DNA of 64,000 bases from Enterocloster lavalensis (lineage in GTDB: Bacteria > Bacillota > Clostridia > Lachnospirales > Lachnospiraceae), in the NCBI RefSeq assembly GCF_902364025.1, contig NZ_CABJCG010000007.1, positions 62,001 to 126,000 of the forward strand, written 5' to 3'. The position numbers and the translations under genes are program-made. Shown piece by piece: positions 2,561 through 24,030 of the stretch; position 1 is the first letter of the stretch; each line of letters starts with the position of its first letter. The notes beneath the pieces were generated by a model. That model searched no databases and was not told where the DNA came from. It worked only from the letters and a program-made list of their open reading frames with translations.

Positions 2561-4672
2561 ATGAAAAAGACGATTTCCGTGGTGGCGCTGGACCCCAGGG
2601 CGGGCAGCTTTTACGCGGATGAGATTCAGGCGCTGTTTGGGAAATATGTGTCGGTCCGCATGTACAGCGTGCGGGACGGTTCCGCCATGGGGCATCTGGA
2701 GCAGGCGGACCTGTTTGTGGTGTCCACGGACGCCTTTGACACCACGGAGGAGATGCAGCAGCACATTCCCGCGGACTGCCAGGTCATGGGAATCGAGGTT
2801 TCCTACCGCTGGTCCACCATCCAGAAGCTGCGGGAGATTCCCAAGGGGACCAGGGCCCTGTTCGTGAACATGACCCTGAAAATGGCACGGGAGGGTATCA
2901 CCCAGCTGGAGCACCTGGGTGTCAATCATCTGGAGCTGATCGCCTATTATCCGGGGGCGGAGCTTGCGGAAAATGTGGACCTGGCGGTGACGCCGGACGA
3001 GGAGCGGTACGTGCCCAAGGGGATCCGACAGGTGATCAAGCTTCCCCACCGGTCCTGCACCTCAGGCATGATGATCGAGATCGCGCTGCGCCTGGGTTTT
3101 GAGGAGCTTTTGGAGACCAGGGAGTTTCAGGCTTATTTCCTGTCCATGGCCACCAACGATTACAGCTTCGGCCACATGCTGGAGCGGTCCACCCGCGTGG
3201 AGAGCCGTTTCGACATTCTAATGGAGATTCTGGACGAGGGGCTGATCGGTATCAATGAAAAGGGGGAGATTTTCGCCTGCAATGAGAAGGCGCGGGAGAT
3301 CACCAGAGTGAGTCCGAATCTGATCGCGGGGCGGCGCGGGGAGGAGGTATTTCCTTATATCCCCTTCCGGAAATGTCTGGAGACCAGAACCGTCCAGCAG
3401 GCCCAGGTGATCAATGTGGGCGGGACCAACGTAAACCTGACGGTGATTCCGGTGATGCGCCAGAGCGAGTGCATCGGGGCCTTTGCCACGCTGCAGCGCT
3501 TCAACGACGTGGAGAAACGGCAGAATGAGCTGCGCAGCCAGCTGTTTCACAAGGGGCACCGGGCGAAATACACCTTCGACGACATCGTGGGCCAGTCCGC
3601 GGGAATCTGCCGCACCAAGGAGATTTTAAAGCGTATGGCCCTCACGGAATCCCCGGTGCTTCTGATCGGAGAGACCGGAACCGGAAAGGAGCTGTTCGCC
3701 CACGCGGTGCACAGCGCCTCCAAGCGCAGCGACGGCCCCTTTGTGGCCATCAATGTGGCGGCCATGCCGGAGAACCTGCTGGAGAGCGAGTTGTTCGGCT
3801 ATGAGGAGGGAGCGTTTACGGGGGCGAAAAAGGGCGGGAGGCCGGGACTGTTCGAGTTCGCCCACACCGGAACCCTGTTTCTGGACGAGGTGGAGGGCAT
3901 GAGCCAGGCCATGCAGATCAAGCTGCTGCGGGTCCTCCAGGAGCGGGAGATCATGCGGGTGGGCGGAAATCAGATCATCCACGTGGATGTGCGCATCATC
4001 GCCGCCACCAACGAATCCCTGGAGAAAAAGGTGGAGGAGGGCAGTTTCCGGCGGGACCTGTATTACCGGATCAACACGCTGCCCGCCCTGATTCCCCCGC
4101 TCAGGGAGCGTGGAAACGATATTTTCCTGCTGCTGGAGCGGTTTGCCGGGGAGACTCAGAGAAAATTCAGCCTTTCGCCCCAGGTAAAGCAGATTCTGGC
4201 CGGATACAGCTGGCCCGGCAATATCCGGGAGCTGCACAATGTGGCGGAATATTTCAGCTATACGGGCCAGGAAGTGATAAGGCCCGAGGACCTTCCGCCC
4301 ACCTTTCTCAGGGGACGGGAAATGACAGGGCCGGACTGGCACGGAGCCGCCCGCCAGAAATCGGGGCGCAACGCCGTCTGGAGGGCGGAGCCCGAAGCCT
4401 GTAGCCAGGAAGGACAGAAGGAGCGGAGCATGGAATTCTGGTTTGTGCTGGAACAGCTTTGCAGAGCGGCCCGGGAGGGCAGGCTGATCGGCCGGGAGTC
4501 CATTCTGGCGGCAGCCAGAGAGGCGGTGTTTCCGTTATCCCAGAAGGAGGTGCGCGGCCTGCTGGAGGAGATGGAGCGGGAAGGTCTGGCCAAGATCGGC
4601 CGCGGCAGAGGCGGCAGCCGGGTCACCCCGGCGGGCATGGAGTTGTGGAAAAAGCGGCAAATAACCAGATAG
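2561..4672 (+). CDS. Sigma-54-dependent transcriptional activator (PAS, AAA+, unusual C terminus)
   Basis: A 703-residue bacterial enhancer-binding protein. Residues 1-200 form an unrecognised sensor region, possibly PrpR-N-like. A PAS-like segment spans about 212-325. The AAA+ domain has Walker A GETGTGKE (370-377), the sigma-54 contact loop GAFTGA (417-422) and Walker B LFLDEVE (439-445), so it should be a functional sigma-54 activator. The expected Fis-type helix-turn-helix is not obvious at the C terminus. Instead residues about 610-703 look like a winged helix, with a [19 protein letters not shown] recognition region followed by a [13 protein letters not shown] wing-like segment. It lies immediately upstream of two sigma-54 promoters with shared ACCAATTA repeats, which it most likely controls. 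ATG 2561 follows an AGAGGAG ribosome site. Confidence 0.9.
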
Positions 4673-4716
4673 ACCAATTTTTCCAGGGGATTTAGCGCAG
4701 TGTTAACAACCAATTA
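4673..4716 (+). promoter_or_regulatory. Putative upstream activator sites (ACCAATT repeats)
   Basis: ACCAATTT lies at 4673-4680, directly after the activator stop codon, and ACCAATTA at 4709-4716; a weaker AACCAGAT is at about 4663. They sit roughly 95-135 bases upstream of the -24/-12 promoter at 4809, the usual enhancer distance. The same motif occurs four times before the second sigma-54 promoter (6327-6383). The motif is seen directly; its role is inferred. Confidence 0.6.
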
Positions 4717-4770
4717 TAGCCCTGGCTTTGGCCGGGAACGAGAAAATTGAGCAGAAATGGTACGCAAAAC

Positions 4771-4808
4771 GGGAGGTTCTGAAGAAAATTCAGAATCTCC
4801 TTTTGTTT
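4771..4808 (+). terminator. Intrinsic terminator of the sigma-54 activator gene (or operator)
   Basis: Twelve-base arms GGAGGTTCTGAA and TTCAGAATCTCC (one mismatch) enclose a five-base GAAAA-type loop and are followed by TTTTGTTTT. It fits an intrinsic terminator for the upstream gene. Because it ends almost at the -24 element, the inner TTCTGAA-N5-TTCAGAA palindrome could also be a regulator site. Confidence 0.6.
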
Positions 4809-4824
4809 TGGCACATAAGTTGCT
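4809..4824 (+). promoter_or_regulatory. Sigma-54 (-24/-12) promoter of the first symporter gene
   Basis: TGGCAC-N5-TTGCT matches the sigma-54 consensus exactly in sequence and spacing. Transcription should start near 4835, leaving a leader of about 160 bases before the symporter start at 4996. The upstream gene encodes an activator carrying GAFTGA, which supports the call. Confidence 0.85.
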
Positions 4825-4855
4825 CTATATAAAGGTAGAAGGAGCGATCAGATCA

Positions 4856-4875
4856 GGCGCCGCTTTTAAGGCGCC
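4856..4875 (+). other. Leader stem-loop upstream of the first symporter
   Basis: GGCGCC at 4856-4861 pairs with GGCGCC at 4870-4875 across an eight-base loop inside the predicted 5' leader. There is no T-tract, so it is not a terminator. The remainder of the 323-base gap (4673-4995) holds the activator sites, terminator and promoter listed separately; no small gene is seen. Confidence 0.4.
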
Positions 4876-4995
4876 GGGACGGAACGGAAGGGGGCGAAGC
4901 GCAGCTTTAACCAGATAACGGATCAGCCTGGATGCTGGGATTTCTCCGGCATTTCGGGGCCGTATTGAGAACGAAAAAGAATTGGAGGGAAAAAT

Positions 4996-6246
4996 ATGGA
5001 TAAGAAGCGTATTTGGAAGAGTTATCGTTTTCCGATCATTCTGGTGATGGGAATCATTGTGGGCGCTCTGCTGGGCGTGACGCTGGGGGAGAAGGCCACG
5101 GTGCTGAAACCGCTGGGCGATATTTTCCTGAACCTGATGTTTACCATTGTGGTGCCCATGGTGTATGTGTCCATCACCACGGCGGTGGGCAACATGGTGA
5201 ACATGAAGCGTCTGGGGAAGATTCTGGGCAATCTGGTGGTTACCTTTATCATCACCGGAATGTTTGCGGCCGCGCTGGTTCTGGTGGTGGTCAATATTTG
5301 GCCTCCCGCGGCCAACACCACCATCCAGCTGGCAAACGCAGAGATGCAGGAGGCGGCCAGCGTGGGCGATTTGCTGGTGAATTCCCTGACGGTAAATGAT
5401 TTCTCGGGGCTGATGAGCCGCAATAATATGCTTCCGATCATCGTGTTCGCCATCCTCTCCGGCGTGTGCGTCAGCGCCTGCGGCGGCGAGGAAAGCCCGG
5501 CAGGCCGTCTGTTAAACAATTTAAATGACATCATTTTTAAAATGGTGGACGTGATCATGAAGCTGGCTCCCATCGGGCTGGGCGCATACTTCGCCAATCT
5601 GGTGGGCGAGTTCGGGCCGGAACTGATCGGGGATTACGGCCGGGCTATGGTGATCTATTACCCCATGTGCCTGGTGTACGTGGTCATTGCATTCCCGGCT
5701 TACACGTACTTTGCAGGTGGAATGACGGCTGTGAAGCGCATGCTGAAGCACATCCTGAGTCCGGCGCTCACGGCCTTTGCCACCCAGAGCTCCGTGGCGG
5801 CGATTCCGGCCAACATGGAGGCCTGCCGGAAGATCGGAGTTCCGGAGGATATCAGCAATATCGTATTACCCATGGGCGCGACCATGCACATGGACGGCTC
5901 CGTGCTCTCCTCCATCATCAAGATTTCATTTTTGTTCGGTATCTTCGGGCAGCCGTTCACCGGAGTGGGAACCTACGCCATGTCCGTGGCGGTTGCGATC
6001 CTGAGCGCGTTTGTGCTCTCCGGAGCGCCGGGAGGCGGGCTGGTGGGCGAGATGCTGATCGTCAGCCTGTTCGGCTTCCCGGCGGAGGCATTTCCGCTGA
6101 TCGCGACCCTGGGATTTCTGTTTGACCCGGCGGCGACCTGCCTGAACTCCAGCGGCGACACCATCGCTTCCATGATGATTACGCGCATGGTGGAGGGCCG
6201 GGACTGGCTGGCAAAACACATCGCCTCCGGTGAGGCAGAGGCATAA
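4996..6246 (+). CDS. Dicarboxylate/amino acid:cation symporter (DAACS), copy 1
   Basis: A 416-residue polytopic membrane protein of the GltP/DctA/TcyP family. Family landmarks are visible: a serine-rich ATQSSVAAIPANMEA loop, GATMHMDGS in the TM7 region, GAPGGGLVG in the HP2 region, and a C-terminal FDPAATCLNSSGD that corresponds to the substrate/cation-binding TM8 motif. The Arg that marks many acidic-substrate transporters near this last motif is not evident, so the substrate may not be a plain dicarboxylate. A close paralogue of identical length lies at 7847. Transcribed from the sigma-54 promoter at 4809 and closed by a terminator at 6275. A GGAGGG ribosome site precedes the ATG. Confidence 0.9.
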   Translation: MDKKRIWKSYRFPIILVMGIIVGALLGVTLGEKATVLKPLGDIFLNLMFTIVVPMVYVSITTAVGNMVNMKRLGKILGNLVVTFIITGMFAAALVLVVVNIWPPAANTTIQLANAEMQEAASVGDLLVNSLTVNDFSGLMSRNNMLPIIVFAILSGVCVSACGGEESPAGRLLNNLNDIIFKMVDVIMKLAPIGLGAYFANLVGEFGPELIGDYGRAMVIYYPMCLVYVVIAFPAYTYFAGGMTAVKRMLKHILSPALTAFATQSSVAAIPANMEACRKIGVPEDISNIVLPMGATMHMDGSVLSSIIKISFLFGIFGQPFTGVGTYAMSVAVAILSAFVLSGAPGGGLVGEMLIVSLFGFPAEAFPLIATLGFLFDPAATCLNSSGDTIASMMITRMVEGRDWLAKHIASGEAEA

Positions 6247-6274
6247 AAAATGGACCCGCTCGCAGTGCGGGCGG

Positions 6275-6316
6275 GAGAGAGGGCCGGGCGGCTGGGACGC
6301 CTGGCTCTCTCTTTTT
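6275..6316 (+). terminator. Intrinsic terminator after symporter copy 1
   Basis: GAGAGAGGGCC pairs with GGCTCTCTC, with inner GGGCG/CGCC pairing, and is followed by five Ts. The segment AGAGGGCCGGGCGGCTG also occurs in the terminator of symporter copy 2 (about 9169), so the terminator arm appears to have been duplicated along with the gene. Confidence 0.85.
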
Positions 6317-6326
6317 GAAGTAATTG

Positions 6327-6383
6327 ACCAATTAAAAATATAATAACCAATTAAAGCGAAAAATTAGCCAATTAAACCAATTA
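6327..6383 (+). repeat. Four ACCAATTA-type repeats (putative enhancer sites)
   Basis: ACCAATTA occurs at 6327-6334, 6346-6353 and 6376-6383, and GCCAATTA at 6367-6374. The region is strikingly AT-rich compared with neighbouring coding DNA. It lies about 95-150 bases upstream of the sigma-54 promoter at 6477, the usual position of activator sites, and the motif also occurs twice before the first sigma-54 promoter. With the terminator, the 6417 palindrome and the promoter, this accounts for most of the 313-base gap 6247-6559. Confidence 0.65.
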
Positions 6384-6416
6384 AATTGAAACTACCCGAT
6401 ATTATTCCCCGTCTCA

Positions 6417-6434
6417 TGTACTGGAAAAAGTACA
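6417..6434 (+). promoter_or_regulatory. Palindrome between activator repeats and sigma-54 promoter
   Basis: TGTACT-N6-AGTACA lies 43 bases upstream of the -24 element. It could bind an additional regulator or a DNA-bending protein. No second copy was found at the first promoter, which instead has a different palindrome. Confidence 0.35.
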
Positions 6435-6476
6435 CAAAATCGTGGTTTTTAATTTATTTCACCTTGCTTTTGCATT

Positions 6477-6492
6477 TGGCACGATAATTGCT
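6477..6492 (+). promoter_or_regulatory. Sigma-54 promoter of the C-S lyase/symporter 2 operon
   Basis: TGGCAC-N5-TTGCT is the same exact match as at 4809. Predicted start near 6503, giving a short leader before the ATG at 6560. Confidence 0.85.
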
Positions 6493-6559
6493 ATATATTA
6501 TGGCATAAGGAATAAAACACCGGGCAGCCGAAAATGGCTGCGGAAAGGATGGATGAGAA

Positions 6560-7729
6560 ATGAAATATGATTTTGATCAGGTGATTGACCGGAGCGGAAA
6601 CCGCGCCTCCAAGTATGACGAGCGGGTGATGAAGTTTGGCACCGACAAGGTGATCCCGCTTTGGGTGGCGGATATGGACTTTAAGACAGCCCAGCCCATT
6701 ATCGATGCCTGCGTAAAGAAGGCGGAGGAAGGGATCTGGGGCTACACTTCCAGACCGGCCAGCTATTTTGAGGCTGTAAAGGGGTGGGAGAAACGGCGCA
6801 ACAACTGGGATGTGGACACCTCTCTGATGAGCTGGAGCCTGGGCGTGGTGCCCGCCCTGTCCGTGCTGGTGAAAATCTTTTCCCACACCGGCGACAAGGT
6901 GATGATCCAGACGCCCGTTTACTCCGAGTTCTACGACGTGACCGAGGCCTGGGAGCGGGAGGTCGTGGAGAACAAGCTGGTGGAGGAGAACGGAACGTGG
7001 CACATCGATTTCGAGGACTTTGAGAAAAAGGCCAAGGAAGTGAAAATCTTCCTGCTGTGCAGCCCCCACAACCCGCTGGGCATTGTCTGGAGCCGCGAGG
7101 AGCTGCAGCGTATGGCGGATATCTGTATCGCCAACGACGTGCTGCTGGTGTCCGATGAGATCCATTCCGACCTGATCTTCCACGGCAAGAAGCACATCCC
7201 CACCGCCACCCTTTCCCCGGAGATCGCGGGTAAGGTGATCTCCTGCGTGTCGGCCACCAAGACCTTCAACCTGGCGGGACTGCAGGCGTCCACCACCATT
7301 TTCCCGAACCTGGAGATGAAGAAGAAATTCGACCGGTTCTGGATGAATATGGATATTCACCGCAACAACGCCTTCAGCTCCGTGGCAATGGAGGCGGCCT
7401 ACAACGAGGGCGAGGAATGGCTGGAGCAGCTTCTGGAGTACATCTCCGGGAACTTCGATTACATCAAGGAATACTGCGACAAGTACATTCCTAAAATCAA
7501 ACCCAGCGTTCCGGACGCCACCTATCTGGTGTGGCTGGACTGCCGTGAGCTGGGAATGGACAACGAGCAGCTGAGAAGCTTTATGATTGAGAAAGCCGGC
7601 CTGGGATTGAACGAGGGTTATACCTTCGGGCGCAGCCTGTCCGGATACATGCGGCTCAATGCGGCCTGCCCCAGAAGCGTGCTGGAACAGGCGATGAAAC
7701 AGCTGAAGGAAGCGGTTGAGACACTGTAA
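6560..7729 (+). CDS. PatB/MalY-type PLP-dependent C-S lyase
   Basis: A 389-residue fold-type I aminotransferase-like enzyme. Visible motifs are SPHNPLG (168-174), SDEIHSDL (198-205) and the PLP-Lys motif SATKTFNLAG with Lys234. The N terminus NRASKYDE and LWVADMDF matches the PatB/MalY group of cystathionine beta-lyases/cysteine-S-conjugate lyases, which cleave C-S bonds to pyruvate, ammonia and a thiol in the cytoplasm. It lies between two DAACS symporters under sigma-54 control, which suggests uptake and cleavage of a sulfur amino acid (cystine or an S-substituted cysteine). MalY-type regulatory side functions cannot be excluded. It reads into symporter copy 2 without a terminator. Confidence 0.88.
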   Translation: MKYDFDQVIDRSGNRASKYDERVMKFGTDKVIPLWVADMDFKTAQPIIDACVKKAEEGIWGYTSRPASYFEAVKGWEKRRNNWDVDTSLMSWSLGVVPALSVLVKIFSHTGDKVMIQTPVYSEFYDVTEAWEREVVENKLVEENGTWHIDFEDFEKKAKEVKIFLLCSPHNPLGIVWSREELQRMADICIANDVLLVSDEIHSDLIFHGKKHIPTATLSPEIAGKVISCVSATKTFNLAGLQASTTIFPNLEMKKKFDRFWMNMDIHRNNAFSSVAMEAAYNEGEEWLEQLLEYISGNFDYIKEYCDKYIPKIKPSVPDATYLVWLDCRELGMDNEQLRSFMIEKAGLGLNEGYTFGRSLSGYMRLNAACPRSVLEQAMKQLKEAVETL

Positions 7730-7846
7730 ATTTACGGCAAGGGGAACTGTGCAGCCCCCACGGCTGCGGGAAATGGGAATCGCGTGGCCCGCGGGGCGCT
7801 CGCAGGCGTAAATTACAGAGGAAAACATACATATGGAGGGACGAAT

Positions 7847-9097
7847 ATGGATAAGAAAAGTATTTGGAAGAGCTATCGGTTTCCGATTATTCTGGTAATC
7901 GGCATTGTAGTGGGCGCGCTTTTGGGCGTTACCCTGGGAGAAAAGGCCACCGTATTAAAGCCGCTGGGCGATATTTTCCTGAACCTGATGTTTACCATTG
8001 TGGTGCCTATGGTATTTGTGTCCATCACCACGGCGGTTGGAAACATGGTCAACATGAAACGCCTGGGCAAGATTCTGGGCAACCTGGTGCTGACCTTTAT
8101 CGTAACCGGCCTGTTTGCAGCCGCGTTGGTGCTGACCGTGGTCAACATCTGGCCTCCTGCGGCCAACACCTCCATCCAGTTCGCAAACGCTGAGATGGCG
8201 GAGGCGGCCAGCGTTGGGGATATGATCGTAAACTCCCTGACCGTAAACGATTTTTCCGGCCTGATGAGCCGCAGCAACATGCTGCCGATCATCGTGTTCG
8301 CGATCATTTCCGGCATCTGCGTCAGCGCCTGCGGCGGCGAGGAGAGCCCGGTGGGCAAGCTGCTCAACAACTTAAACGATATCATTTTCAAGATCGTCGG
8401 CCTGATCATGAAGCTGGCTCCCATCGGACTGGGCGCGTACTTTGCCAACCTGGTGGGCGAGTTCGGACCCGAGCTGATCGGCGACTACGGCCGTTCCATG
8501 CTGGTGTATTACCCCATGTGCCTGGTTTACGTGGCGGTGGCCTTCCCGGCTTACGCCTACTTTGCAGGCGGAACCGTGGGTGTGAAGCGCATGCTGAAGA
8601 ACATTTTCAGCCCCGCCATCACGGCGTTTGCCACACAGAGTTCCGTTGCAACCATCCCGGTGAATATGGAGGCCTGTAAAAAAATGGGTGTTCCCGAGGA
8701 CATCAGCAACATCGTGCTTCCCATGGGTGCAACCATGCATATGGACGGTTCTGTGCTGTCCTCGATTGTGAAAATCGCGTTCCTGTTCGGCGTATTCGGT
8801 CAGCCCTTTACGGGCGTTGGCACCTACGCCATGGCCATTGTGGTGGCGATCCTCAGCGCATTCGTGCTGTCTGGCGCTCCGGGCGGCGGTCTGGTGGGCG
8901 AGATGTTGATCGTCAGCCTGTTCGGCTTCCCAGCGGAAGCATTTCCGTTAATTGCTACCCTGGGCTTCCTGTTTGACCCGGCTGCAACCTGCTTAAACGC
9001 CAGCGGCGACGCCATCGCTTCCATGATGATCGCACGTATGGTGGAGGGCAAGGAGTGGCTGACCAAACGGATCGCTTCCGGCGAGGTTGAGGCTTAA
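7847..9097 (+). CDS. Dicarboxylate/amino acid:cation symporter (DAACS), copy 2
   Basis: A 416-residue paralogue of the protein at 4996, collinear over its whole length with mostly conservative changes (MDKKSIWKSYRFPII against MDKKRIWKSYRFPII). The same ATQSSVA, GATMHMDGS, GAPGGGLVG and FDPAATCLNASGD motifs are present. I chose ATG 7847, which follows ATGGAGGGACGA; the longer frame from 7784 adds non-homologous residues absent from copy 1. It lies 117 bases after the C-S lyase gene with no terminator between them, so both should be transcribed from 6477. Silent differences between the copies suggest an old rather than very recent duplication. Confidence 0.9.
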   Translation: MDKKSIWKSYRFPIILVIGIVVGALLGVTLGEKATVLKPLGDIFLNLMFTIVVPMVFVSITTAVGNMVNMKRLGKILGNLVLTFIVTGLFAAALVLTVVNIWPPAANTSIQFANAEMAEAASVGDMIVNSLTVNDFSGLMSRSNMLPIIVFAIISGICVSACGGEESPVGKLLNNLNDIIFKIVGLIMKLAPIGLGAYFANLVGEFGPELIGDYGRSMLVYYPMCLVYVAVAFPAYAYFAGGTVGVKRMLKNIFSPAITAFATQSSVATIPVNMEACKKMGVPEDISNIVLPMGATMHMDGSVLSSIVKIAFLFGVFGQPFTGVGTYAMAIVVAILSAFVLSGAPGGGLVGEMLIVSLFGFPAEAFPLIATLGFLFDPAATCLNASGDAIASMMIARMVEGKEWLTKRIASGEVEA

Positions 9098-10496: not shown

Positions 10497-10512
10497 GACA
10501 GGAGGGGTGATC

Positions 10513-12456
10513 ATGGGGAAAATTGTTCTGCTGGTGTCCCGGGAGGAGATGCTTCACCAGGCCCACAATATTTTACAGGAAAAGAAATTTGAGATCGGGG
10601 AGATGCGGGTCATAGAGACCAAGGACACGGTGATCGAGGCCAGAAAGGCCATCGCGGGGGGTGCGACGCTGATCATCGCCAGGGGTTTGCAGGCTTCCAT
10701 GATCAAACAGTATACGGATATCCCGGTAGCGGAGATCGTGATGACGGCCCAGGAGATGGCCCTGCTGGTCATGAAGGCGAAGCAGATTTTAAAGAAGGAG
10801 CACCCGGTGATCGCGGTGGTGGGATTTAAAAACATGTTCTGCGACATGTCCTTCTTCGATATGATCTACGACATTGAGCTGCGCACCTACTTCGCGTCCG
10901 CCGGGGAGGAGCTGGAGCAGACGTCCAGAAAGGCGGCCCAGGAGCAGGCCGACCTGATCATCGGAGGCGACACGGCGGTCAGCGTGGCCACAGAGTACGG
11001 CATCCCCTCCCTGTTCCTCTCGCCCACGGAGGACTCCATGCGCAACGCCATGGCCATCGCGGAGCGCATGGACTATGCCATGGGGGTGGAGAAGCGCAAG
11101 GAGGCCCAGTTTGAAGCGCTTTTGGACAATTCCCTAAACGGTGTGATGCGCACGGACTCCGAGGGAAAGATCACTGCCATGAATCCCATTATGGAGGAGC
11201 TTTTGGGGGAGAAGGAGGCGGCCTACCGCGGGCGTTCCCTGTTTCGGGTATTCCGGGACATTGATCCGGAAATGTTTCAGAATCTGGTGGAGAACAAGCG
11301 GGACAACTATTCCCTGTTTTTGCAGGTGCGCCGCAGTTCCGTGCTGGCGGTGCTGGCCCCCATTGTGATCGAGGGTAAGGTGGACGGCATTATCCTGACC
11401 TGCAGCCGCGTACAGCGCCGCCCCAGGCCGGATACCGGGAGATCGGATAAGGAGCGCTCGGAGAGGGCCCGCCACAAGGGGCTGGTGGCCCTGGGGCAGT
11501 TCGAGGATATTTTGCAGAAATCCCAGCAGATGCAGGCTTGTGTCAAACGGGCCCGCCTGTTCGCGCTTTCGGAGCGGGCGGTGCTTCTTACGGGAGAGCC
11601 GGGGACGGAGTTAAGCCTTATGGCCCAGGCCATCCACAACCAGAGCCTGCGCAGCCAGGGGCCGTTTGCGTCCGTTTCCTGCGTGGGGCAGACCGGGGAG
11701 CAGCAGGAAAATCTGATCTTCGGGCAATCGGGCATCCTGCCCTTTGTGGACGGGGGGACCCTGTTCATCGAATCCATTGAGTCGCTGACGCCGGATAACC
11801 AGTACAAGCTGGCTAAATTGATCCGCAGCAAGCGCTATCTGCGCAAGGGGGATTTCCAGAAGCGGACGCTGGACGTGCGGATCATCGCGGCGTCCGGGCG
11901 GGACCTGGGCCGGGAGACGGCGTCCGGGGCGTTTTTGGCGGAGCTGTATTACCTGCTGCAGGGACTGGTGATCCGGATTCCGCCGCTGAGGGAGCGGAAG
12001 GAAGATTTGCGCGAAAAAATCCGGCAGTGCATCCGGAAAAGCTGCGAAACCTGCGCCAGACATCACGTGCTCACCGAGGGCGCGTACAAGGTGCTGCTGG
12101 ATTATCCCTGGAATGGAAATTTAATCCAGGTGGAAGCGTTCTGCGAGTGCCTGATCCTGACGGCGGATAAGCGTTCCCTGGACGAGATTTCCGTGAAGGA
12201 AACGCTGCGGAGCCTGTATTCCGGCCCGGCTTCCGACCTGGGTCCCGGAGCGGAGCGCATGGGAGAGACGTGGTCCGCATCCGGGGAACGCGCCATGGAT
12301 GCGCGGGAGCGGAAAATTCGCGTCCTGCTTCAGGAATATGGGGGGAAGCGTCAGGAGGTGGCCCGGGAGATGGGGATCAGCAAGTCCACGCTGTGGCGTT
12401 ATATGAAGAAATACGAGATCGGAGGGGCGGACGGCGGAAGTACGGAAAAGAAGTGA
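10513..12456 (+). CDS. PrpR-like regulator with degenerate sigma-54 activator domain
   Basis: A 647-residue protein. Residues 1-190 resemble the PrpR-N sensor domain and 195-300 a PAS domain. Residues about 330-560 are homologous to the AAA+ sigma-54 activator domain but lack its key motifs. Walker A has become GEPGTELS (361-368, catalytic Lys lost), the GAFTGA loop is absent (GQSGILP at 404-410), and Walker B is LFIESIE (417-423). The C terminus has a Fis-like helix-turn-helix (GGKRQEVAREMGISKSTLWRYMKKY). It should therefore bind DNA and ligand but not activate sigma-54, acting on sigma-A promoters instead. It ends just upstream of the aldarate operon, its likely target. Start ATG 10513, after AGGAGGGG; GTG 10507 overlaps that site. 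Confidence 0.85.
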   Translation: MGKIVLLVSREEMLHQAHNILQEKKFEIGEMRVIETKDTVIEARKAIAGGATLIIARGLQASMIKQYTDIPVAEIVMTAQEMALLVMKAKQILKKEHPVIAVVGFKNMFCDMSFFDMIYDIELRTYFASAGEELEQTSRKAAQEQADLIIGGDTAVSVATEYGIPSLFLSPTEDSMRNAMAIAERMDYAMGVEKRKEAQFEALLDNSLNGVMRTDSEGKITAMNPIMEELLGEKEAAYRGRSLFRVFRDIDPEMFQNLVENKRDNYSLFLQVRRSSVLAVLAPIVIEGKVDGIILTCSRVQRRPRPDTGRSDKERSERARHKGLVALGQFEDILQKSQQMQACVKRARLFALSERAVLLTGEPGTELSLMAQAIHNQSLRSQGPFASVSCVGQTGEQQENLIFGQSGILPFVDGGTLFIESIESLTPDNQYKLAKLIRSKRYLRKGDFQKRTLDVRIIAASGRDLGRETASGAFLAELYYLLQGLVIRIPPLRERKEDLREKIRQCIRKSCETCARHHVLTEGAYKVLLDYPWNGNLIQVEAFCECLILTADKRSLDEISVKETLRSLYSGPASDLGPGAERMGETWSASGERAMDARERKIRVLLQEYGGKRQEVAREMGISKSTLWRYMKKYEIGGADGGSTEKK

Positions 12457-20222: not shown

Positions 20223-21233
20223 ATGGAAAATAAGGACAATACACTGGTGGAGGTCCGCCACCTGAAAAAGCATTTCCAGGTAGGGGATAAAAAGGTTCTG
20301 CACGCGGTGGATGACGTCAGTTTTTCCATCGGCAGAGGCCAGACCCTGGGACTGGTGGGGGAGAGCGGCTGCGGGAAGAGCACGGTGGGCACCGTGGTGA
20401 TGCGCCTGCAAAAGCCCACCTCCGGGGAGCTGATTTTTGAGGGGAAGGACATTTTTAAGTGCACGGACCGGAAGGAAAATCTGGAGTACAGGCGGGGGAT
20501 GCAGATCGTGTTCCAGGACCCCTACTCCTCCTTAAATCCGAAAAAGACCATCCGCAGCATCCTCTCCGAGGGTTATCTGATCCACCACACCGTGACCAAG
20601 GGGCAGTTGAACGACACCCTCTCCCTGCTGTCGGAAAAGACCGGAATATCCAAGGACATGTGGGACCAGTATCCCCACGAGCTGGACGGCGGCAAGCGCC
20701 AGGTGGTGGGCATCGCCAGGGCGTTGAGCATGAACCCGAAGTTTATCGTCTGCGACGAGCCGGTTTCCTCCCTGGACGTATCCGTTCAGGCTAAGATTCT
20801 GAATCTGTTGATGGATTTACAGAAGGAAATGAACCTGTCCTACCTGTTCATTTCCCATGATCTGAGCGTGGTGAAACACATCTCGGACCGAATCGCCGTG
20901 ATGTATCTGGGACAGATTGTGGAGATGGCGGACCGGCAGACGCTGTTCGCGGACACGCGCCATCCCTATTCCATCGCCCTGCTCTCCGCCATCCCCAAGG
21001 TGGACGTGGACAACAAGGTGAGCCGCATCGTCTTAAAGGGCGACGTGCCCAGCCCCATCAATCCCAAGCAGGTCTGCCGATTCGCCAACCGCTGCTGGAT
21101 GAGCCAGCCCATCTGCTTTGAGCAGGAGCCGGAGCTTAAGGAAATCAGTACGGGCCACTGCGTGAAATGTCATTTCGCCCAGGAGTCCAGAGAGCGGATG
21201 CTGCGGGCCGAGACCTCCAGCATCGAGAGTTAG
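20223..21233 (+). CDS. Oligopeptide-type ABC transporter ATPase (DppF-like)
   Basis: A 336-residue ATPase with Walker A GESGCGKST and Walker B FIVCDEPVSSLD. The signature is LDGGKRQVVGIARAL, where the family usually has LSGGQRQR; this is an unusual but conservative variant. The C-terminal oligopeptide domain has cysteines in VCRFANRCWMSQPIC. It starts 5 bases after the DppD-like gene, so translation is probably coupled. It ends 11 bases before the first glucarate dehydratase, tying transporter and catabolism together. Confidence 0.92.
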   Translation: MENKDNTLVEVRHLKKHFQVGDKKVLHAVDDVSFSIGRGQTLGLVGESGCGKSTVGTVVMRLQKPTSGELIFEGKDIFKCTDRKENLEYRRGMQIVFQDPYSSLNPKKTIRSILSEGYLIHHTVTKGQLNDTLSLLSEKTGISKDMWDQYPHELDGGKRQVVGIARALSMNPKFIVCDEPVSSLDVSVQAKILNLLMDLQKEMNLSYLFISHDLSVVKHISDRIAVMYLGQIVEMADRQTLFADTRHPYSIALLSAIPKVDVDNKVSRIVLKGDVPSPINPKQVCRFANRCWMSQPICFEQEPELKEISTGHCVKCHFAQESRERMLRAETSSIES

Positions 21234-21244
21234 GAGGGCAGGGT

Positions 21245-22603
21245 ATGCAAGGTGACAACCATATGGCTAAGGGATCCCCTGTGGTCACTACCATGCAGGT
21301 GATCCCGGTGGCCGGGAGGGACAGCATGCTGATGACCCTCAGCGGGGCCCACGGGCCGTTTTTTACCCGGAATCTGGTGATCCTCACAGACAGCGCCGGG
21401 CACAGGGGCATCGGGGAAATACACGGCGGGGACTACACCTGCCAGGCCCTTGAAAGCTTTATTCCCCTGGTGGAGGGGGAGCCGGTTGGGGCATACCGCC
21501 GGATCCTTGGAAAAATCCATGGGACCTGCGGGCCGCAGCCCGGGGAGGCGGGCGAGGGAATCCAGCGGCTGGACATTGCCAAGCTGAAATTCGTGGTTCG
21601 GGCGGAGTGGGCCGTGGAGTGCGCCCTTTTGGACCTGCTTGGGCAGTATCTGGGACTTCCGGTCTGCCAGCTGTTGGGCGAGGGAAAGCAGCGGGACCGG
21701 GTGGAAACCCTGGGCTACCTGTTTTACGTCAGCGACAAGGCCAAGACGGACCTGCCCTATTTGGACGAGGAAAATGCCGCCGGCTGGTTCGCCATGCGGC
21801 GGCGGGAGATGCTAACGCCCGGGAAGATTGTGGAGCAGGCCCAGGCTTTGCAGGAACGGTACGGATTTTGCAGCTTCAAGCTGAAGGGCGGCGTGCTTTC
21901 CGGGGAGGCGGAGATGGAAACGGTCCGCGCTCTGAAGAAACATTTCCCGGAGTGCCGGATCAACATAGACCCCAACGGCGCGTGGAGCCTAAAGGAGGCA
22001 ATCCGGCTCTGCAAGCCCATGGAGGGCGTCCTGGCCTACGCAGAGGACCCCTGCGGCCCGGAGGCGGGCTACAGCAGCCGGGAGATCATGGCGGAGTTCA
22101 AGAACGCGGTGAATATCCCGGTGGCAACCAACATGATTGCCACCAACTGGCGGCAGTTCTACCATGCCGCGGCCCTTCACGCCGTGGATATCGTGCTGGC
22201 GGACCCGCATTTCTGGGGTTTTGACGGCAGCGTGCGTATGGCTCAGATTTTAGAAGAGTGGGGGTTGACCTGGGGAAGCCATTCCAACAATCATTTCGAT
22301 ATTACTTTGACGGCATTCGCCCATGTGGCGGCCGCGGTTCCGGGCCGTCCCACTGCCCTTGACACTCACTGGATCTGGCAGGACGGCCAGAACCTGTTGA
22401 AAAACGCGCCGCAGATTCGGGACGGATATCTTGAAGTGCCAAAGGGGCCGGGACTGGGCGTGGAGATCGATATGGTGAAGGTAGAGGAGGCCAACCGGCT
22501 GTACCGGCGGCTGCCTGGTCACGACCGGGACGACGCTGCGGCCATGCAGTACCTGATTCCCGGTTGGAAATTTGACCCTAAAATGCCGGCGTTGGTGCGC
22601 TAG
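21245..22603 (+). CDS. gudD: Glucarate dehydratase, copy 1
   Basis: A 452-residue enolase-superfamily enzyme. It has the GudD N terminus (VIPVAGRDSMLMTLSGAH), the base motif KLK at 212-214, metal-ligand positions in INIDPNGAW and AEDPCG, and the general-base His region SHSNNHFDI near the C terminus. The enzyme dehydrates D-glucarate (and usually L-idarate) to 5-keto-4-deoxyglucarate with Mg2+. I start at ATG 21245, with GGAGGG 7-8 bases upstream; an upstream extension would overlap the ATPase gene. The next gene is a clear paralogue. In E. coli GudD is paired with the inactive-looking GudX, so one copy here could also have a different role. Confidence 0.87.
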   Translation: MQGDNHMAKGSPVVTTMQVIPVAGRDSMLMTLSGAHGPFFTRNLVILTDSAGHRGIGEIHGGDYTCQALESFIPLVEGEPVGAYRRILGKIHGTCGPQPGEAGEGIQRLDIAKLKFVVRAEWAVECALLDLLGQYLGLPVCQLLGEGKQRDRVETLGYLFYVSDKAKTDLPYLDEENAAGWFAMRRREMLTPGKIVEQAQALQERYGFCSFKLKGGVLSGEAEMETVRALKKHFPECRINIDPNGAWSLKEAIRLCKPMEGVLAYAEDPCGPEAGYSSREIMAEFKNAVNIPVATNMIATNWRQFYHAAALHAVDIVLADPHFWGFDGSVRMAQILEEWGLTWGSHSNNHFDITLTAFAHVAAAVPGRPTALDTHWIWQDGQNLLKNAPQIRDGYLEVPKGPGLGVEIDMVKVEEANRLYRRLPGHDRDDAAAMQYLIPGWKFDPKMPALVR

Positions 22604-22659
22604 AAGATGGAACGCCTTAAAGCCGGTACGCTGGCGGGGAGGCTGGACTGAAAACAAAA

Positions 22660-22676
22660 CGCCGCCCAACGCGGCG
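22660..22676 (+). other. Stem-loop between the two glucarate dehydratase genes
   Basis: CGCCGC and GCGGCG form a six-base stem with a five-base loop and no T-tract. It is an intra-operon structure upstream of the second gene's GAGAGGAG ribosome site. Confidence 0.4.
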
Positions 22677-22701
22677 GTTCACAGAGAGAGGAGATAGACG
22701 G

Positions 22702-24030
22702 ATGGTTCCCAGAATCACAAAGATGGAGGTCTTTCCCGTGGCGGGGAGAGACTGTATGGAGTTGAATTTAAGCGGGGCCCACGCGCCCTATTTTACCAGA
22801 AACGTGGTGGTGCTCACCGACAGCAGCGGACTTCTGGGCGTGGGCGAGGTTCCGGGCGGAGAGAAGATCACGAAGGCCCTTGTGGACAGCATCGATCTGG
22901 TGGTGGGCACCAGCGTGGGGGAGTACAAGAATACCCTGGTGCGGGTGAAGGAACAGCTGGACCGCAGCGTTGCGGAGGATGTGCGGGGTAACCAGACCTT
23001 TGACCAGCGCACCGGCGTCCACGTGCTGACGGCCATCGAGGCGCCCCTTTTAGACCTGCTGGGAAAATACCTGGAGGTGCCTGCGGCGGCCCTTTTGGGG
23101 GACGGCCAGCACCACGACCGGGTTCGGATGCTGGGCTACCTGTTTTTCGTGGGGGACCGCAAACGGACGGATCTGCCCTACGCGTCGGAACCGGACAGCG
23201 ATTGCGCCTGGTACCGCCTGCGCCACGAGGAGGCCATGACCCCGGAGGCGGTGGTGGAGTTAGCCAGGGCGGCCAAAGAGAAATACGGGTTTGAGGATTT
23301 CAAGCTGAAGGGCGGCGTCCTGGACGGCGAGGAGGAGATGAGGGCGATCCGGGCGTTAAAGAAGGAATTTCCCGACGCCAGAATCACCCTGGACCCCAAC
23401 GGCTGCTGGAGCTTAAAGGAGGCTGTAGCGCTGTGCCGGGATATGCAGGGGATTCTGACCTACTGCGAAGATCCCTGCGGCGTGGAGGGCGCTTACTCGG
23501 GGCGGGAGATCATGTCCGAGTTCCGCCGGGCCACCGGACTGCCAACAGCCACCAATATGATCGCAACGGACTGGAGGCAGCTTGGCCATTCGTTGGAAAT
23601 GCAGTCTGTGGATATTGTGCTGGCGGACCCGCATTTCTGGACCATGAACGGCTCTGTGCGGGTGGGACAGCTGTGCAGCGACCTGGGATATATGTGGGGA
23701 AGCCATTCCAACAACCACTTTGACATTTCCCTGGCCATGTTCTCCCAGACCGCGGCCGCGGTTCCGGGGCGGCTCAACGCCATTGACACCCACTGGATCT
23801 GGCAGGAGGGCATGGAGCGATTGACCAAAGAGCCGTTACAGATCGTGGACGGCTGGGTGGAGATTCCGAAGAAGCCGGGCCTTGGCATCGACGTGGACAT
23901 GGAGCAGGTGAAAAAGGCCCATCAGCTGTATCTGGACAACTGTCTGGGCGGCAGAGACGACGCCGCGGGTATGCAGTATCTGATTCCGGGATGGAAGTTT
24001 GACCCCAAGCGGCCCTGTATGGTGCGGTGA
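22702..24030 (+). CDS. gudD: Glucarate dehydratase, copy 2
   Basis: A 442-residue paralogue of the 21245 protein, similar over its whole length ([74 protein letters not shown]). All the catalytic motifs seen in copy 1 are kept, so both copies look active. It may differ in stereospecificity (glucarate against idarate or galactarate) or act as a GudX-like partner. ATG 22702 follows GAGAGGAG. It is the last gene of the operon; no strong terminator is visible before the rnpB promoter. Confidence 0.87.

Follow-up and report, generated by a model that had tools for sequence, protein, structure and literature searches.

A 64,000-nt stretch of Enterocloster lavalensis DNA (contig NZ_CABJCG010000007.1, positions 62,001 to 126,000; hereafter the window) contains a locus, entirely on the forward strand, in which a gene for a sigma-54 activator (2561–4672) is followed by sigma-54 promoter P1 (4809), a first SDF-family symporter gene, sigma-54 promoter P2 (6477), a C-S lyase gene and a second SDF symporter gene. 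Short repeats beginning with ACC precede both promoters, and it is highly probable that they are upstream activating sequences (UAS), such that a winged-helix activator acting on tandem AACCAATTA units drives both P1 and P2. The features computed in support of this are the promoters, the conservation of the motif and its local specificity, a phasing of direct repeats across the activator family, a predicted winged-helix fold, the gene order and a duplication. The organism from which the window comes is related to [Clostridium] asparagiforme DSM 15981, and the nearest genome (G001) has 27% of sampled 31-mers in common with it.

P1 (4809–4824, TGGCACATAAGTTGCT) and P2 (6477–6492, TGGCACGATAATTGCT) are the only matches to TGGYAYNNNNNWTGCW in the 64 kb (0.36 expected; at least two in 5 of 100 shuffles), and in the manner of -24/-12 promoters served by a sigma-54 enhancer-binding protein each has repeat sites 100–150 bp 5′ of its TGGCAC, at 4809 and 6477. 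The activator gene ends in ACCAGA-TAG with ACCAATT directly after it, so that the first unit before P1, ACCAGAT (4664–4670), overlaps its last codons and stop; this unit is assigned from its sequence and from the presence of ACCAGATA/AACCAGAT in 4 of 18 relative regions. An ACCAATT unit (4673–4679; ACCAATTT at 4673) lies 9 bp beyond it and a ACCAATTA unit (4709–4716) a further 36 bp downstream. The array before P2 consists of ACCAATTA (6327–6334), ACCAATTA (6346–6353, spacing 19), GCCAATTA (6367–6374, spacing 21) and ACCAATTA (6376–6383, spacing 9). A sequence-only reading of the window had claimed two exact TGGCAC-N5-TTGCT promoters at 4809 and 6477 and an activator with GAFTGA just upstream, and both are present as described, the motif occupying residues 417–422 of the 703-aa protein. 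The ACCAATTA-type sites that it placed before both promoters were also found, in less perfect form: a single site before P1 is exact (4709), the others being ACCAATTT (4673) and ACCAGAT (4664), and of the four before P2 three are exact ACCAATTA and one reads GCCAATTA (6367). Exact ACCAATTA occurs in the window only at 4709, 6327, 6346 and 6376 (0.85 expected; four copies reached by 3 of 100 shuffles). ACCAATT is present eight times where 6.3 would be expected, and five of these copies fall in the two stretches, 366 bp in all, that run from a preceding stop codon to P1 or P2. A count over the whole window would by itself make the motif ordinary to mildly unusual; its strength lies in position and conservation.

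Conservation was assessed in 20 regions, each bounded by the preceding stop codon and the promoter, comprising 18 regions from relatives and the two of the window, against dinucleotide-preserving shuffles. Left out of these counts were L031/L053 (the same locus, from the nearest species), L068 (a duplicate of L035), L040 and L067 (contig ends), L044 (promoter absent) and L064, whose layout is divergent and which has ACCAATT 56 bp before its promoter. ACCAATT is found in 23 copies in 13 of the 20 regions (shuffle mean 1.74, maximum 7 in 300 shuffles); without the window there are still 18 copies, in 11 of the 18 relative regions, all between activator gene and promoter (shuffle mean 1.67, maximum 6). 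The looser form ACC[AT][AG][AT]T (ACCWRWT) gives 40 copies in 18 of the 20 regions, versus 6.0 in shuffles. When all 8-mers of the 18 relative regions were enumerated with the window excluded, the top five were CAACCAAT, ACCAATTA, ACCAGATA, AACCAGAT and AACCAATT. Plain enumeration replaced motif discovery by expectation maximization with a zero-order background, which had settled on GC-rich sequence and was dropped. In some species the predicted first unit is written into the stop codon of the activator gene itself (ACCAATTAA); this gene ends ACCAAT-TAA in L034, L038, L041 and L043. As ACC AAT TAA is a predicted binding unit, the Thr-Asn C-terminus that it encodes may be kept for reasons of DNA rather than of protein; this C-terminus occurs in only 2 of 26 aligned homologues.

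The motif is also specific to this locus in the nearest genome. Paired CCAATTA occurs at four places in G001, three of them here, and there is no sigma-54 promoter in the 3 kb surrounding the fourth. The same genome has 14 TTGGCAYN5TTGCW promoters, two at this locus, and none of the other 12 has ACCAATT or ACCWRWT within 220 bp. Beyond this genome, a search at E 1e-25 finds no activator in 7 of 17 genomes of the same genus, although four of the seven hold distant members (best E 1e-11 to 5e-8), and the 500 bp upstream of 20 C-S lyase homologues from these seven served as controls; at 31–51% identity they are paralogues rather than orthologues. Such a promoter precedes none of the 20, and ACCAATT one. 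The sequence-only proposal of a local regulon holds in the nearest genome. Its proposal that ACCAATTA is the site of an uncharacterised activator is supported as regards the site by the window-free 8-mer ranking, the 12 other promoters and the control lyases, and has to be relaxed as regards the activator, since the type of regulon is not wholly uncharacterised (see below).

These comparisons bear on the possibility that ACCAATTA is bound by some other regulator of the same genes, such as a repressor, the sigma-54 activator binding elsewhere. P2 does have an inverted repeat, TGTACTGGAAAAAGTACA, of TGT-N12-ACA type at about 6417–6434, which corresponds to the layout of classical Fis-type enhancer-binding proteins as given in PMC6615313. 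However, the TGT-N10-12-ACA pattern is found in just 1 of the 20 regions (P2 of the window) versus a mononucleotide-shuffle mean of 2.5 and is consequently not a shared site, whereas the ACC motif tracks the activator gene, being present in 11 of 18 relative regions and before only 1 of 20 lyase homologues from genomes without a close activator copy. A separate regulator for the motif is thus unlikely. The inverted repeat lies between the UAS array and P2, is also seen before P2 in L031, and may serve a second activator, of Fis type, for which the protein encoded at 10507–12456 is a candidate. The latter, the second sigma-54 activator of the window, has PrpR_N, PAS and Fis helix-turn-helix (HTH) domains and a GAFTGA region that appears by eye to be altered (FGQSG); beyond P1 and P2, the 64 kb holds no standard-form sigma-54 promoter that it might serve.

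The second line of evidence is the spacing of the units. Most of them, across the family, form direct repeats in head-to-tail orientation, separated by about one turn of the helix. Same-strand ACC-ACC distances in the 20 regions peak at 9–11, about 20 and 29–33 bp, with 32 pairs at 8–11 bp versus 3.7 in shuffles (maximum 11), 14 pairs at 18–21 bp versus 3.4 (maximum 9), and 7 pairs at the out-of-phase distances of 13–16 bp versus 3.4 (maximum 10). For periods of 10.3 or 10.5 bp the observed in-phase score is reached by 0 of 2000 jittered sets, and this is unchanged without the window and without L039, which has about eight degenerate tandem units in a run. A test that presupposes no motif, applied to 25 more distant regions, gave 108 direct 7-mer pairs at 8–11 bp versus 15.8. 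These 25 loci had been chosen for a promoter match no more than 700 bp downstream, other distant loci remaining unused, and with L165 added (26 regions) they were submitted to k-mer enumeration, in which TAACCCAT and TAACCTAT were only among other top words; the family-wide consensus at that distance comes partly from reading the sequences. The distant set also peaks at 12 and 24 bp, which on reading looks attributable to the single locus L047. There, at about 8790–9090 (reverse strand), a paralogous activator whose C-terminus is of the same kind precedes a tandem repeat of 12 bp, AACGGCATAATT, and then an SDF symporter with a sigma-54-like promoter in front of it; this is possibly a different repeat unit with a different period.

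Several observations weigh against the proposed motif and its direct-repeat arrangement. The relatives are not independent, as genus or genome is shared among regions (L036/L041; L038/L039; L046/L048), exact ACCAATT is missing from 7 of the 20, and 5 of the 23 copies, including both of L065, are on the opposite strand. The 6-mer and 7-mer rankings are less clean than that of 8-mers (ACCAAT third, AATTGGT second), and L044 has an orthologous activator and no such promoter within its 13 kb. Loose ACCWRWT is found within 500 bp upstream of 9 of the 20 control lyases, which limits specificity to the tighter form. The excess of direct repeats is individually significant in just 12 of 25 distant and 8 of 20 orthologue regions, and in the window the motif-free test detects no pairs before P1 and five before P2, a borderline result (p 0.05). 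The window spacings of 9 and 36 (P1) and 19, 21 and 9 (P2) include one, 36, that is out of phase, so phasing belongs to the family and not to each array. Inverted 7-mers are likewise in excess in both region sets (260 vs 92 and 169 vs 75) over many spacings, as terminators and opposite-strand sites would give, and this weakens a claim of pure direct repeats. The 12 control promoters of G001 also have some direct-repeat excess (43 vs 17.4; significant in two), and one of the two significant controls (L149, at 771081) is about 0.2 kb from another activator-family gene (770094–770867), the C-terminus of which is also of winged-helix type (L050). That modest excess, along with the AT-richness of the regions, would suit general AT-rich bending or UP-like DNA to which the activator has no sequence-specific recognition. 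Such an explanation is extremely improbable, because the core of the motif is ACC and not AT only, dinucleotide-preserving shuffles fail to reproduce it, and it is absent from the other sigma-54 promoters of G001 (0/12).

The activator itself (2561–4672, 703 aa) comprises a periplasmic-binding/PrpR-like N-terminus, a weak PAS domain, an AAA+ sigma-54 interaction domain (PF00158, 228 bits) and a predicted C-terminal winged-helix DNA-binding domain at residues 600–703, with a core of about 624–703 (4358–4669). The predicted C-terminus has the three helices and two-strand wing of that fold, and the 703-aa protein has no match to the Fis-type HTH_8, which the second activator of the window does match. 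In its predicted fold the N-terminus is similar to 2pju (PrpR) and to other binding proteins of two lobes, with no Pfam match to PrpR_N (PF06506), and no convincing relative came out of PDB sequence searches with profiles of the N- and C-termini.

The presence of the motif at both promoters could also reflect nothing other than recent duplication, in which case the two copies would not be two pieces of evidence. The two symporters of the window and L031 do cluster together (support 0.994) as lineage-specific duplicates, and the P1 and P2 promoter cores align at 80% over 46 bp. We infer that the second promoter arose by duplication of a promoter-(lyase)-symporter unit followed by loss of one lyase. 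Nevertheless, the two arrays have different numbers of units and different spacings (9, 36 vs 19, 21, 9), and the motif is kept at the single-promoter loci of other species, where there is no duplication; already weakened in this way, duplication as the whole explanation is very unlikely.

Genes downstream of the activator are conserved in arrangement. The first symporter (4996–6246; PF00375, E 1.7e-97), the PatB/MalY-family lyase (6560–7729; TIGR04350, 470 bits, cutoff 340) and the second symporter (7847–9097; 88% identity to the first) have counterparts in L031, of the same species as the nearest genome, in which the gene set is identical, the symporter 1 and lyase proteins are 98–99% identical, and the second promoter reads TGGCAT where the window has TGGCAC. 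The lyase follows the activator in 20 of the 22 orthologous loci that hold downstream sequence, with an extra symporter in between in the window and L031. All ten relatives in which both genes were found behind the activator (L068, as the duplicate of L035, not counted) have the order activator-promoter-lyase-symporter, and several more have the lyase with no symporter detected. In L046 and L048, from a single genome, the activator genes are split over several frames with lyase and promoter intact, through sequencing error or decay.

Enhancer-binding proteins are usually pictured as Fis-type dimers on inverted repeats. The classical examples (NifA, FhlA, and PrdR) share with the present system an AAA+ domain with GAFTGA, sites 100–250 bp upstream and a sigma-54 promoter, but have HTH_8 and many TGT-N10-12-ACA inverted repeats, neither of which is a shared feature here (PMC6615313, PMC3162934). 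A Fis HTH is reported for 335 of 490 clostridial activators (PMC6615313), the word "winged" being absent from the main text of that paper; the DNA-binding types listed in PMC3162934 are HTH_8 or N-terminal, and the text of PMC9130780 and PMC12316311 adds nothing on this point. The closest known regulon is that of CD2733 in C. difficile, whose promoter is listed with CD2732 as regulator (PMC7438776 Table 4). That published promoter was found exactly in 1 of the 71 genomes searched in that family, at locus L165, where an activator 35% identical over residues 5–697, with a winged-helix C-terminus of the same kind by sequence, is followed by two copies of AACCTATTT spaced 9 bp, then by the promoter and by a lyase of 46% identity that has the same first 20 residues as PDB 4dgt. 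The same layout with a published promoter indicates that the regulon type is already known (CD2732/CD2733). L165 differs in its UAS unit (AACCTATTT, as opposed to AACCAATTA in the window family), in having an NhaC-type antiporter instead of an SDF transporter, and in its single promoter, before the lyase. The known type is perhaps XcyR, a clostridial sigma-54 activator controlling malY-pepT-hyp (PMC6615313 Table 1), which is reported from genera including Clostridioides and Lachnoclostridium and has a UAS motif that the paper sets apart from the TGT/ACA type (PMC6615313). XcyR targets an operon starting with malY, and here a PatB/MalY lyase follows the activator, preceded by the extra symporter in the window and L031; the listed XcyR targets differ in including pepT.

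Two further systems are more distantly comparable. L136 has the published promoter core of CD3093 (GamR type) together with an activator of winged-helix-type C-terminus by sequence, whereas the targets described for GamR are puuD/puuT-type genes (PMC7438776, PMC6615313), the L136 unit resembles AATAGGTTA by eye and its activator is about 37% identical in the best-aligned stretch. DVU0151 of Desulfovibrio vulgaris, reported to have a likely winged-helix domain, is described as the only sigma-54 activator in its species for which no Fis HTH is annotated, and some of its orthologues match a winged-helix superfamily model; it differs in having GAFSEA instead of GAFTGA, a transport operon as target and another phylum as host, and direct repeats are not described in the text of that account (PMC4641369). 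Full-text literature searches, in which subscription journals lay mostly outside and supplements were not covered, returned no account of winged-helix activators with direct-repeat UAS. In those searches neither a winged-helix assignment for clostridia nor a grammar of direct repeats was found.

A mechanism can be proposed in which the 703-aa protein would be a cytoplasmic one-component sigma-54 enhancer-binding protein, its C-terminal winged helix, on a variable linker, binding the tandem AACCAATTA repeats about 100–150 bp upstream of both promoters. Binding would probably be by an oligomer, each repeat taking up a single winged helix. A small ligand at the periplasmic-binding/PrpR-like N-terminus would lead to ATP hydrolysis and to opening by sigma-54 RNA polymerase at P1 and P2, thereby inducing the two copies of a neutral amino-acid symporter and the PatB/MalY C-S lyase, so that cysteine or related thiol amino acids would be taken up and broken down. 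Binding to these sites, stoichiometry, ligand and substrate are the parts that we infer, and the substrate assignment, being of this kind, counts with the points against the proposal. The substrate is suggested as follows. In GltPh an arginine holds acidic side chains; the SDF symporter has Ala aligned to that Arg, which precedes T-M-V-N, suggesting a neutral substrate. The divergent gene of L064 and the gene after the symporter in L065 both belong by Pfam to the SDH_alpha family, which includes cysteine desulfidases, with no NCBIfam match above cut-off for either protein. The PatB lyase, the Ala-type symporter and these SDH_alpha-family genes together point to cysteine or thiol amino-acid breakdown, a function for which the balance is about even.

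On a broader scale, there is an even chance that a widespread branch of sigma-54 activators has swapped the dimeric Fis HTH for a tethered winged helix, with a grammar of mainly head-to-tail AACC-N-ATT, one per DNA turn, and protomers side by side on one helix face instead of dimers bound to inverted repeats; the UAS array may template the ring. If true, winged helices on phased direct repeats would provide a simple system for studying the assembly of an AAA+ hexamer by an enhancer array. Arrays of AACCNATT in front of -24/-12 promoters could be used for assigning targets to unassigned clostridial activators, including those of gut species possibly able to catabolise sulfur amino acids. The gut bacterium studied here appears, judging from its DNA, to turn on genes for a transporter and for an enzyme of sulfur amino acids by means of an activator that recognises short repeats lined up in a docking layout unusual for such activators.

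A terminator-like hairpin of 13 pairs, detected by consensus scan only, lies between the UAS and P1 (4771–4801) and probably terminates the activator transcript, which would place the UAS in the 3′ untranslated region of the activator gene. The UAS motif is not itself a terminator or attenuator, an explanation rejected because the sites are not contained in the hairpin. Hairpins similar to it were seen by eye between UAS array and promoter in several relatives. An Rfam scan of 4600–8000 at gathering thresholds gave no match. Elsewhere in the window, two tandem genes with sequences alike, at 21167–24030, are named by eye only as enolase-superfamily (glucarate dehydratase-like) genes.

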